Source: Balneolaceae bacterium (lineage in GTDB: Bacteria > Bacteroidota > Rhodothermia > Balneolales > Balneolaceae). From it: a stretch of DNA of 39,384 nucleotides. The notes under the pieces are model-generated. The model worked only from the letters and a program-made list of their open reading frames with translations. It searched no databases and was not told the origin of the DNA. Where the stretch lies: the NCBI GenBank assembly GCA_020832415.1, contig JAFIES010000084.1, positions 1-39,384 on the forward strand, given 5' to 3'. Positions 18,484 to 23,532 of this stretch are shown piece by piece. Positions within the stretch are counted from its first letter, which is position 1; every line of letters begins with the position of its first letter. A program made the position numbers and the translations under genes.

Positions 18484-19029
18484 TTAGATGTCAAGATCAG
18501 CCATTACAGCATCTGTGATATCATATTCTGCCTGTACCTGAGGAGATACATAGAGAATAATTACATCACCGGTTGAGGTGGTTGTATTCAAAACGTAATC
18601 CAGTCCACGCTGAGAGGCTACATTATTAATAGACTCCTGAATTTGCTGAAGCAAAGGTGCCATTAGATTTGCACGCTGCTGCTCAATTTCCTGCTGAGCC
18701 TGGTTCTGTAACTGACGAAATTCCTGATCGAGCTGTGTAAGTCTCTCTTCCTCGTTCTGACGTGCTTGCTCTGAGATTACACCAACTTTTTGCTGATATA
18801 GTTCGATTTCAGTTTGCAGCTCACGCTCTTTAGTAACCAGTTCGTTCTGTTTTCTTTCAACAAGGTTCTGAAGCCGTTGCTGTACAGCACGCATTTCTGG
18901 CATTCTTTCCAAAATAGCCCGTGGCTCAACAAAACCGATCTTCATATCCTGAGCGTTTGCAGCCGGTGCAACAAGAAGTGTTGACAGTGCAATAAGTAGT
19001 GTTATAAAAACGATGCTTAAATTTTTCAT
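18484..19029 (-). CDS. OmpH/Skp-family periplasmic chaperone, third tandem copy
   Basis: 181 residues from ATG 19029 (MKNLSIVFITLLIALSTLLV), chosen because a signal peptide starts there; an upstream in-frame ATG at 19080 would bury it. Cleavage is expected after ANA. The mature protein opens with the Skp strand MKIGFVEPRAILERMPEM, continues as long Gln/Glu-rich coiled-coil arms (about residues 45-130) and ends with a LDYVLNTTTSTGDVIILYVS strand. Skp trimers hold unfolded outer-membrane proteins on the way to BamA. It follows the second copy by 28 bases and is the last gene of the block before the terminator. Confidence 0.88.
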   Translation of the reverse strand: MKNLSIVFITLLIALSTLLVAPAANAQDMKIGFVEPRAILERMPEMRAVQQRLQNLVERKQNELVTKERELQTEIELYQQKVGVISEQARQNEEERLTQLDQEFRQLQNQAQQEIEQQRANLMAPLLQQIQESINNVASQRGLDYVLNTTTSTGDVIILYVSPQVQAEYDITDAVMADLDI

Positions 19030-19057
19030 GGTAATTTTTTTGTAATGTTGGGTCGGG

Positions 19058-19579
19058 TTAATTTTGTGTGAGTTTTTCAATTACGCGCTCTGTTATGTCG
19101 GAAGCACGTTGTGATGCAAAATAGACGATTGGGTCGCCTGTGTTGGAAGTTTTGTTCAGTACAAAATCGAGGCCAAGTTCCTCAGATACTTCTGCCATTG
19201 CATCTTCCACTTTTACCAAAAGTGGATTAAACAGATCGTTCTGGCGTTGTTGTATCTGATTTTGAATCCTGTTCTGGAAGCTGTTTAATTCTTCTTGCAG
19301 TTCCATAAGGCGTTCTTCCTGACGAGCTTGTTCCTGCTCGCTTAATGCCCCGGCTTCAACCTGCTCAGAGTATTCTGTTAGATCATTAATCCAGTCCTGA
19401 TAGCGCGTTTGAAACGCATTTTGGCGCTCCTGAATATACTGCTCTAATTGTTGTTGTACCTGAGCTGCTTCCGGCATGGCATCAAGTACATCATCAGGAC
19501 TCATGATCCCGATTTTTAGTTGAGCCATTGCCATGGCCGGCAATAGTAAAAACAGTGTAGTTATGATTATTTTTTTCAT
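19058..19579 (-). CDS. OmpH/Skp-family periplasmic chaperone, second tandem copy
   Basis: A 173-residue protein with a signal peptide (MKKIIITTLFLLLPAMAMA), the Skp opening strand LKIGIMSPDDVLDAMPEAAQ, Gln/Glu-rich coiled-coil arms (about residues 40-125) and a C-terminal LDFVLNKTSNTGDPIVYFA strand that closely parallels the third copy. It lies 41 bases after the first copy. Similar length and matching N- and C-terminal motifs show tandem duplication. The arms have diverged much more than the core strands, which may mean different client ranges. Confidence 0.88.
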   Translation of the reverse strand: MKKIIITTLFLLLPAMAMAQLKIGIMSPDDVLDAMPEAAQVQQQLEQYIQERQNAFQTRYQDWINDLTEYSEQVEAGALSEQEQARQEERLMELQEELNSFQNRIQNQIQQRQNDLFNPLLVKVEDAMAEVSEELGLDFVLNKTSNTGDPIVYFASQRASDITERVIEKLTQN

Positions 19580-19620
19580 TGTCTGATTTTTTTTAGCACC
19601 AAATTTAAGGTTTATATCAA

Positions 19621-20163
19621 TTAATTTCTTGGGTCGTCGATACCTAATTCTAACATCACTTCATCCGTCAGGTTCCACTGTTGCCTGGTAAATAAAAATC
19701 TGGTTTCATTTGCACGATCAAATACAAAGTCGAAATCTTCCCGATTTGCTACCCGTGTTAACGCATCAAATATCAATCTTTGTATAGGTTCAAGCAGTTC
19801 TTTTTGCCGTGTAAAGTAATCTCCCTGCGGACCAAACCTGGTTTCAATTAATCTGTCCAGCTCATTACGTTTTTGGGAGATTTCATTGAGCCGCTGTTCC
19901 CGAATTTCATCAGTAAACAGAATTTCACGTGCATCAAAATCCCTTTCGAGCTCATCTAATTCGCTTTCTAACTCATTTATTTCCTGCCGCCAACCATCAC
20001 TTAGCAGAGAAAGTCGCTGTTCAATCCCGGAGTATTCCGGCATGTTTTGCAGAATAATATCAGAATCGATAAATCCAATCTTTTGGTTCTGTCCAACTAT
20101 ATCAGTTACCGGCCATAAACATACAGCTGCAATGAGTAATGATATTGGCACCTTTCTTGTCAT
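19621..20163 (-). CDS. OmpH/Skp-family periplasmic chaperone, first tandem copy
   Basis: 180 residues from ATG 20163 (MTRKVPISLLIAAVCLWPVT), which is one base after the bamA stop (TAACATG). A longer in-frame start at 20250 would overlap bamA and hide the signal peptide. It has the Skp core QKIGFIDSDIILQNMPEYSG, acidic coiled-coil arms (about residues 50-120), and a C-terminal FDFVFDRANETRFLF strand. This is the most divergent of the three: it lacks the TGD turn shared by the other two. Its placement right behind bamA suggests translational coupling. Confidence 0.85.
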   Translation of the reverse strand: MTRKVPISLLIAAVCLWPVTDIVGQNQKIGFIDSDIILQNMPEYSGIEQRLSLLSDGWRQEINELESELDELERDFDAREILFTDEIREQRLNEISQKRNELDRLIETRFGPQGDYFTRQKELLEPIQRLIFDALTRVANREDFDFVFDRANETRFLFTRQQWNLTDEVMLELGIDDPRN

Positions 20164-20164
20164 G

Positions 20165-21202
20165 TTAGAACGGTGCACCAATATTAAACAGGAATTCCCA
20201 CTCTCCGGGGCGTAATCCCGGACCTTCAGTAGATGATGGGGTGCCATCAAGCCGGTAACCGTAACTCAGGTCAACCAGTCCCAAAATCGGGAGGAATATC
20301 CGGGCACCAAAACCTACAGAACGCTTCACATCAAATGGATCGAAATCGGTCATTCCATTAAAGGCGTTACCCGCATCCATAAATACATACGGAATAAGCT
20401 GAAGCTGTTCAGAACTTACTGCAGGATAGCGTAATTCAAGAGAGTATTTGTTATACACCCGGCCACCCACAAGGTTTTGATTATCATCTAATGGCGAAAT
20501 TACACCGTTAAAGCCACCGGGGAAGCCACGAAGGTCAACATTATCGTTCAGGAAGTTTTGACGCTGCTGAATTTGAGTACCGCCAATAAAGAATCGCTGG
20601 AAATTACTCCTGTTGTTTTCACTGAAATAACCCATGTAACCATATTCAGCCACACCACTCAGTACCAGTCGTCCCGTAATTGTATAGTGATGCTGATATT
20701 CAGTTTTTAATTTGTAGAACTGAGCAAAACCCGGAACTGGAAGTGCAACCTCACCGGAGAGACTGAATTTTGAACCATCACGCGGAGAAATAGGGTTATC
20801 TATCGAATTTCTCTCAATAATTTGTCGCAGTGTTAACAGGTCAGCCCGTCCGTCATCAAATACATTGCTGAATCCGAGCACATTAAATCGATTGTACGTT
20901 AACACCGTTCGCTGTGAAAACAGATCATCGGGCCATTGTAATCTTCGGCCAAGGCTAACACTTGCAGAGAAAAGTTCATTACGCCTGTCCGGTTGCTGAA
21001 AGCCACCGAATGAAGGCTGGCGGCCAAAGTTCAGGAAATCGTAAGATAAACTGACTCCTAATGAAGTTGGACGACCACGCAGCCATGGCTCTGTAAAGCT
21101 GAAATTATAGCTTTGATAGCCCCTGCCCGTAACCTGCACACCAAGTGAAAGGCGCTGACCATCGCCGGATGGAATGGGTGTCCAGCCTCCGGGTTCAAAC
21201 AT
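20165..21202 (-). CDS. bamA: BamA, C-terminal part (barrel strands 3 to 16), separated by an in-frame stop
   Basis: 345 residues in the same frame as the upstream bamA part, beginning ATG directly after its TGA (TGAATG). It holds most of an Omp85 barrel: RGYQSYNFSFTEPWLRGRP is the conserved strand-3/4 region, DLRGFPGG is the loop-6 (V/I)RGF motif, VYNKYSLELRYP and FMDAGNAF are late strands, and the chain ends in the canonical terminal Phe (FNIGAPF). Nothing else is degraded. It has no signal peptide, so on its own it could not reach the envelope. No Shine-Dalgarno precedes the ATG, although stop-start adjacency could allow reinitiation. Either the TGA is a sequencing error or recent mutation, or it is read through. 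Confidence 0.85.
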   Translation of the reverse strand: MFEPGGWTPIPSGDGQRLSLGVQVTGRGYQSYNFSFTEPWLRGRPTSLGVSLSYDFLNFGRQPSFGGFQQPDRRNELFSASVSLGRRLQWPDDLFSQRTVLTYNRFNVLGFSNVFDDGRADLLTLRQIIERNSIDNPISPRDGSKFSLSGEVALPVPGFAQFYKLKTEYQHHYTITGRLVLSGVAEYGYMGYFSENNRSNFQRFFIGGTQIQQRQNFLNDNVDLRGFPGGFNGVISPLDDNQNLVGGRVYNKYSLELRYPAVSSEQLQLIPYVFMDAGNAFNGMTDFDPFDVKRSVGFGARIFLPILGLVDLSYGYRLDGTPSSTEGPGLRPGEWEFLFNIGAPF

Positions 21203-22681
21203 TCAGCGCACAGAGAAGTTATTGAAATTTACACGGGCTGCTAAAATAACACCGATTTGCCGGCCGCCAAAACCACCGGAAAATTCAAAGTTATCCGTTC
21301 CCTGAGTTTCATCAAGGCCGTATATAATATCTACGGTACGGTTTTCCCGATCTGGCTGAAGATCGGGTGTTATCCCCTCAGGATTAAAGTAACCAAGCTG
21401 ACCAAGTTCCCGAATAGATCGGATAATGTTGGATCTGCTGTAAGTCTGGCCGGGCCGGGTACGTATCGTTCGGCGCACCACATCATCATGAGTTTTGGTA
21501 TTTCCGTGGAAAGAGACTTTTCGGATGGTTGCGATTTCATCCTCAACTATTTCGAACGTAATATCAAGTGAATCACCCTCAACTATTTGAATATCAGGGT
21601 ATATATCAAAAAACAGATAACCAATATTCTGATATAAACTCAGGATATCGCGCTCATCCCTTCTGCCACTGATGTTGTCATCAAAACGTCCCTGGTCGAA
21701 AATATCTCCTTTTTGAAAATCGAAAAATGTAGTGAGCTGCTCATCCGTATATACGGTGTTACCATCCCATTCAATATTTCTGATGCGGTATTGCGGCCCC
21801 TCTTCTATACGGATATTGAAATATACGCCCTCTTTACGTCTCCAGTCATCAACATAAACAGTATCAGATACCACACGGATATCCATAAAGCCATTATTCC
21901 GATAGTAGCTTAACAGATTTTCAATACCCTCTTCGTAATCATCCTGGGTATAGACGTGGCGTTTAAAGATTCTCCACCATCGATCTTCTTTAATGGTTGA
22001 AAACTCTTTTCTCAAGCGGCGATCAGTAAACTCTTCATTACCGGTAAAGCTGATATCTCTCACTTTTATTCTTTCACCGGGATCGATCTCAAAGGTTACG
22101 ATTACTCGATTTCTTTCATCTCCGGTGAGCTCTTCACTAATTGAAATTTGTGTATCCCAGTAGCCCCTGTCGCGGTAATAGCGGCGGATGGTGCTCAATG
22201 CCTGTTCTTTTACAGTATTGGTAAACGCAAATCCAGATATAAGATTTAGTTTCTCTCGCAGATCGCGGCGATGAGATCTTCGGGGACCTTCAATTTCGTA
22301 ACGATGAAGACGAGGCTGCTCCTGCACTCTGATTTCGATATTTACACCATTGCCTCCAACACGTTCATGCAGAATTTGCACATCTGAAAAAAGGCCAATT
22401 CTGTAAAGTTGTCTTACGGCATTGGAAATTGCCTCACCGGGTATTTCAATCGTATTACCGGCTCTCAATCCGCTGCTTGCAAGAATATGCGCCTCCCGAC
22501 CTGTAACCAAACCTGTTACAGTTACTTCACGAATTTCGTACTCACGAGAGGGGTTTTGGGTGGGATCTTGAATCTGAATCCTCCCGGTATCCTGAGCTTT
22601 TAAATCCTGAATGATTAGTGTTCCCGATAGCGCAATAAATAAAAATACAAAGATGTGCTTTATTCTTAACACGTGATACAA
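21203..22681 (-). CDS. bamA: BamA, N-terminal part (signal peptide, five POTRA domains, first barrel hairpin)
   Basis: 492 residues. BamA is the core of the machine that inserts outer-membrane beta-barrel proteins. The signal peptide is about residues 1-29. Five POTRA repeats follow: about 46-115, 116-200, 201-291, 292-377 and 378-455, each with the alpha-beta pattern and Gly turns (for example FTGNEEFTDRRL, WDGNTVYTDEQL, FHGNTKTHDDVV). The last 38 residues (NFEFSGGFGG, then GVILAARVNFNNFSVR) are barrel strands 1 and 2. It then stops at TGA (21203-21205), where homologues continue through the turn into strand 3. Both parts plus one residue give 838, a normal BamA length. It follows uppS by 17 bases. 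Confidence 0.9.
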   Translation of the reverse strand: MYHVLRIKHIFVFLFIALSGTLIIQDLKAQDTGRIQIQDPTQNPSREYEIREVTVTGLVTGREAHILASSGLRAGNTIEIPGEAISNAVRQLYRIGLFSDVQILHERVGGNGVNIEIRVQEQPRLHRYEIEGPRRSHRRDLREKLNLISGFAFTNTVKEQALSTIRRYYRDRGYWDTQISISEELTGDERNRVIVTFEIDPGERIKVRDISFTGNEEFTDRRLRKEFSTIKEDRWWRIFKRHVYTQDDYEEGIENLLSYYRNNGFMDIRVVSDTVYVDDWRRKEGVYFNIRIEEGPQYRIRNIEWDGNTVYTDEQLTTFFDFQKGDIFDQGRFDDNISGRRDERDILSLYQNIGYLFFDIYPDIQIVEGDSLDITFEIVEDEIATIRKVSFHGNTKTHDDVVRRTIRTRPGQTYSRSNIIRSIRELGQLGYFNPEGITPDLQPDRENRTVDIIYGLDETQGTDNFEFSGGFGGRQIGVILAARVNFNNFSVR

Positions 22682-22698: not shown

Positions 22699-23532
22699 TT
22701 ACGATGTAATATGGTTTATAACTGTTGCAGATATACTTTTGTTATATCCGTTTTTAACTTTCCCGTATCTGCGATCACGTTTCTGATAGGAGAAGATAGC
22801 ACGATATAGCTCATCCCTTCTAAAATCAGGCCAGTAGGTTTCTGTAATGAAAAGTTCGGAGTAGGCCAATTGCCATAACAAAAAGTTACTGATTCGATAT
22901 TCTCCGCTAGTACGGATAATCAGATCAGGGTCCGGTATGGCTGCCGTTGAGAGGTATGAGCCAATAAGGTTATCATCAATTTGATCAGGATTGATGTTTC
23001 CGTTATCCACCTCTTTTGCAATTTGTTTTACTGCTTCAGTGATATCCCACCGGCCTGAGTAGCTTAATGCAAGGCAAAGCTGCATTCGCTTATTATCTTT
23101 AGTAAGATCTTTCACTTCCTGCAGTTGCCGCTGGCATTTTGCAGGTAAACGTTCAATCTGACCTATGGTTACCAGTTTGATATCATTTTCTTTGAGCCGG
23201 TCTGCTTCATCGCGCAGTGCCTGAACAAGTAATTTCATCAGCCCGTTGATTTCTGCAGATGGCCGGTTCCAGTTCTCAGTTGAGAATGCATAGAGAGTGA
23301 GATATTTAACACCAAGCTGTGCACATGATTCTGTAATATCTCTTACAGATTTAACGCCGGCTTTATGGCCATGCAGCCGGATATTGCCTTTTTTCTGTGC
23401 CCAACGCCCGTTACCATCCATTATTATGGCAATATGCGCAGGTATAGAACCGGAAGCCTTTACCTCTTCCTGAAGCTTTTTATCCTCTTCTGACTGCTCT
23501 GTATCTGTGATTGTTAGCGGTTCGCTGGCCAT
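22699..23532 (-). CDS. uppS: Isoprenyl transferase (undecaprenyl diphosphate synthase)
   Basis: A 277-residue cis-prenyltransferase that elongates farnesyl diphosphate with isopentenyl diphosphate to make the C55 carrier lipid for peptidoglycan and O-antigen. The catalytic D39 is in IAIIMDGNGRWAQKKG. LRLHGHKAG-type residues, YLTLYAFSTENWNRP, and the C-terminal DPDLIIRTSGEYRISNFLLWQLAYSE with FTETYWPDF-like end are all present. An acidic N-terminal extension of about 30 residues makes it longer than the usual 245-255. It is 61 bases downstream of ribH and 17 upstream of bamA, the order commonly seen in Bacteroidota relatives. Confidence 0.97.
   Translation of the reverse strand: MASEPLTITDTEQSEEDKKLQEEVKASGSIPAHIAIIMDGNGRWAQKKGNIRLHGHKAGVKSVRDITESCAQLGVKYLTLYAFSTENWNRPSAEINGLMKLLVQALRDEADRLKENDIKLVTIGQIERLPAKCQRQLQEVKDLTKDNKRMQLCLALSYSGRWDITEAVKQIAKEVDNGNINPDQIDDNLIGSYLSTAAIPDPDLIIRTSGEYRISNFLLWQLAYSELFITETYWPDFRRDELYRAIFSYQKRDRRYGKVKNGYNKSISATVINHITS

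Follow-up and report, generated by a model that had tools for sequence, protein, structure and literature searches.

Architecture of the interrupted bamA locus

The window analysed here, a stretch of 39,384 nucleotides, is contig C6 of a draft genome (3.94 Mb, 152 contigs, 95% complete) most closely related, among named genomes, to Balneolaceae MAGs and Rhodohalobacter isolates. On its minus strand lies a bamA gene in which two open reading frames sharing one frame, the first of 492 aa with a TTG start and the second of 345 aa with an ATG start, are separated by an in-frame TGA (AAC TTC TCT GTG CGC TGA ATG TTT GAA CCC on the minus strand; Table 1). This is the only internal stop in the 839-codon translation, as the preliminary description of the locus, which reported a gene split by one TGA with its parts in register, had indicated. 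The gene is flanked by uppS on one side and by OmpH/Skp-like genes on the other.

Table 1. Coordinates of the interrupted bamA frame and its neighbours in the window
Feature	Coordinates	Strand	Description
bamA, whole interrupted frame	20165..22681	(-)	839 codons, both stops included
bamA, first part	21203..22681	(-)	signal peptide region, POTRA domains, barrel strands 1-2; terminates at the in-frame TGA
bamA, in-frame TGA	21203..21205	(-)	codon 493; stands in place of an Arg invariant across 51 distinct related contigs
bamA, second part	20165..21202	(-)	remaining Omp85 barrel from strand 3 on; first codon ATG, an ancestral internal Met
OmpH/Skp-like genes	18484..20157	(-)	three in a row, directly downstream of bamA
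uppS	22699..23532		neighbour on the other side of bamA

Read across both parts, the frame displays the arrangement typical of BamA (TIGR03303), namely POTRA repeats followed by an Omp85 barrel, and the two halves match consecutive segments of that model (positions 2-423 and 425-723, respectively). The POTRA repeats (PF07244) are detected in the first part and the Omp85 domain (PF01103) in the second, in agreement with the earlier assignment of a POTRA part before the stop and a barrel part after it; the assembled gene departs from the family in that the TGA at codon 493 breaks what would otherwise be a continuous open reading frame. In an AlphaFold2 model of BamA from the closest relative with an intact gene (moderate confidence, mean pLDDT 68), residue 493 falls between strands 478-489 and 505-518, which is consistent with the earlier suggestion that the stop would lie in the turn joining barrel strands 2 and 3.

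The BamA proteins of Balneolaceae and Rhodohalobacter have the same sequence and POTRA-plus-barrel architecture, with the nearest relative 96% identical at the protein and 82% at the nucleotide level, but they lack the stop, which is a feature of this assembly. Furthermore, the profile of the intact relatives aligns along the solved BamA chains, the stop site included, and the best match, PDB 9n2d chain A, is one continuous polypeptide, unlike the interrupted bamA described here.

Conservation of the stop site and selection on both halves

The barrel was found in 54 of the 57 related genomes searched, and the frame is open through the site wherever the contig covers it (in one of the 54, G024, the barrel match is truncated before the stop site). 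Residue 493 is always Arg, encoded by AGA, CGA, AGG, CGT or CGG, in 71 aligned loci that come from two overlapping collections and represent 51 distinct contigs, and the column is invariant in an alignment of 28 sequences. None of the relatives covering the site has a stop at codon 493. In the four nearest relatives the Arg codon is AGA or AGG, and in the nearest of all it is AGA, from which TGA differs by one base change.

The preliminary description had also drawn attention to the ATG that directly follows the TGA. The adjacency itself is real, but as a signal it does not hold up: we consider it a coincidence because the Met directly after the site is a normal, ancestral residue in nearly all members of the genus, and TGAATG shows no enrichment in the window (38 observed vs. 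40.8 expected). These observations bear on the idea of a genuine two-piece BamA, in which the halves would be made separately, with a restart at the ATG, and would form a joint barrel. The position of the ATG and the intactness of both halves are what such a protein would call for, but the ATG is an internal Met by ancestry, no relative has a split gene, and the second half would start inside the barrel, without a signal peptide, so that this arrangement appears exceedingly improbable.

With respect to selection, dN/dS against the nearest relative is 0.016 in the POTRA part and in the barrel part alike, a value that is approximate given that dS is already high (~1.8-1.9); the estimate was confined to this relative because dS against more distant ones is very high or saturated. 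Judging from these substitution rates, both halves of bamA are under equally strong purifying selection, with no apparent relaxation after the stop. Moreover, at 324 otherwise invariant positions the gene carries two private changes (I89V and the stop), compared with 0-5 in other members of the genus.

Decoding of TGA and copy number of bamA

The full conservation of the half downstream of the stop would also be expected if full-length BamA were restored by functional recoding, be it a local change of the code, a suppressor tRNA or programmed readthrough of UGA. However, among 155 genes compared with a relative, the gene-ending stops are TAA in 94, TGA in 33 and TAG in 28, and the RF2 gene is present and intact, which sustains the earlier doubt about genome-wide reassignment of TGA. 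No UCA anticodon is present among the tRNAs read, which are those other than a pair of 84-nt tRNAs and the tRNA fragments lying at the ends of two contigs. The tRNA-Trp is ordinary, with anticodon CCA, A9 and a full 5-bp anticodon stem (CTGGT/ACCAG), in contrast to the form with a 4-bp anticodon stem that has been linked to UGA reading (PMC13092985); on the tRNAs read, a suppressor tRNA was rejected. Selenocysteine at codon 493 was rejected as well: the tRNA-Sec required for a selenoprotein was not found in the genome search, in which the sole match at the RF01852 cut-off was tRNA-Ser(UGA).

At the RNA level, no recoding structure was detected after the stop: the 80-nt stretch that begins with it shows no better folding than shuffled sequences do (z -0.65) and behaves much like its counterparts in intact relatives. 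With RF2 present, TGA in use as a stop, and neither the stop nor a downstream element conserved in any relative, the gene does not have the properties of programmed UGA recoding or reassignment. Thus, the option of readthrough raised in the preliminary description finds no sign in its favor, and we regard functional recoding as extremely improbable. Even taken together, recoding and a two-piece BamA are highly improbable; that the organism truly has the TGA and nonetheless makes a working BamA, be it through readthrough or as two parts synthesized independently, is very improbable too.

A further option was a second intact bamA elsewhere in the genome. Searches with the first half and with the complete gene at the DNA level both matched this locus only, in an assembly that is 95% complete. 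Some sequence is necessarily absent from such an assembly, distributed as it is over 152 contigs, and if that sequence included an intact bamA, or if an intact strain variant of the locus existed, the present copy would be a pseudogene or a minor variant. Nevertheless, nearly all relatives have just a single match to the barrel query, and the copy examined here is flanked by uppS and the ompH genes. Five Omp85 proteins besides BamA are encoded in this genome; none of them looks like a private replacement of BamA, because multiple Omp85 proteins, some of similar lengths (~650, 797 and 386 residues), likewise occur in relatives whose bamA is intact, and replacement by an Omp85 paralogue was rejected on these grounds. 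Hence, we consider an intact copy or strain variant missed by the assembly unlikely.

Origin of the stop and other lesions in the draft

In Gammaproteobacteria and Bacteroidota, BamA is reported to belong to the essential core (PMC12578637), and it is presumably essential in this lineage too; a fixed null allele is unlikely on that account. A real, fixed stop would mean that an essential outer-membrane machine can work in two pieces or relies on stop-codon readthrough. The TGA is present in the assembled sequence, and a biological role for it is without any support. Accordingly, the gene is most likely not a new kind of gene, functional splitting, readthrough and a code change all being unsupported.

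We propose that this isolated one-base lesion is probably a consensus error in the draft assembly, the leading explanation among those considered here: at codon 493, one wrong base would have replaced the invariant Arg with TGA in an otherwise ordinary, single-copy gene under selection, and in the living organism the gene would most likely encode one continuous BamA of ~838 residues. This explanation accords with the uninterrupted frame in all covering relatives, with the Arg shared by the distinct contigs, with the equal constraint on both halves, with a number of private changes that lies within the range of the genus, with the fact that 4.1% of all single-base changes in bamA create a stop, and with the further isolated lesions that this draft contains, described below. 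The preliminary description had offered a sequencing error or a recent nonsense mutation as one option, and it is this option that the isolated lesion, the intact relatives, the failure to find a second bamA and the absence of any sign of readthrough or reassignment favor.

The second member of that pair, a genuine nonsense mutation that arose very recently in the population sampled, remains a tenable though less probable alternative. It would imply a minority or dying lineage, or one in which the stop is tolerated via low-level natural UGA readthrough or restart. The AGA codon of the nearest relative is one base away from TGA, the full selection signature in both halves is as expected of a very young change, and, when compared with 27 relatives, the sense genes between 9 and 31 kb of the window showed no further stop or frameshift, an otherwise clean background that speaks against a consensus error. 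On the other hand, BamA is treated as essential and was found in a single copy, and the second half lacks an export signal. Furthermore, the E. coli bamA101 mutant is viable with ~five-fold lower surface BamA (PMC3585180), whereas basal readthrough would be predicted to give far less BamA than that level. For these reasons we favor a consensus error over a real recent mutation.

The frequency of comparable lesions in the draft was assessed by comparison of ~1.09 Mb of this genome with a relative assembled in 7 contigs (G023), which yielded 175 matched ORFs, one of them an antisense match at an HU-like gene (L167) that was removed from the lesion list by hand. Besides bamA, there are ~3 lesions in 174 compared sense genes, whereas with the direction of comparison reversed the number is 0 of 171, a difference that rests on small counts; isolated lesions of the bamA kind elsewhere in the draft thus affect roughly 1-2% of the compared genes. 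A codon-usage scan of the same 1.09 Mb for genes broken by stops was abandoned in favor of this homology comparison, having no power (bamA itself fell below the cut-off). Some of the lesions are in accessory-type genes and may be genuine pseudogenes, which, together with the small counts, weakens the argument for a consensus error in bamA. Single-base lesions in draft genomes, be they consensus errors or young pseudogenes, follow the same pattern of a lone lesion in a gene that is otherwise intact and under selection, although bamA differs from the usual cases in being regarded as essential. A literature search yielded no reports of stop-codon errors in metagenome-assembled genomes. As the evidence stands, the bamA stop calls for caution with regard to single-base lesions in draft genomes.

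The lesions in question comprise an M28 peptidase gene close to the end of contig C30 (L151, 5-661, minus strand), with one in-frame TAA where a relative has Tyr; a small ORF of the four-helix type (L164, 11004-11270, plus strand) that stops at TAA where a relative reads on with Cys; and a nucleotidyltransferase-like ORF (L042, 15710-16140, plus strand) with a frameshift relative to L172 (19540-19971).
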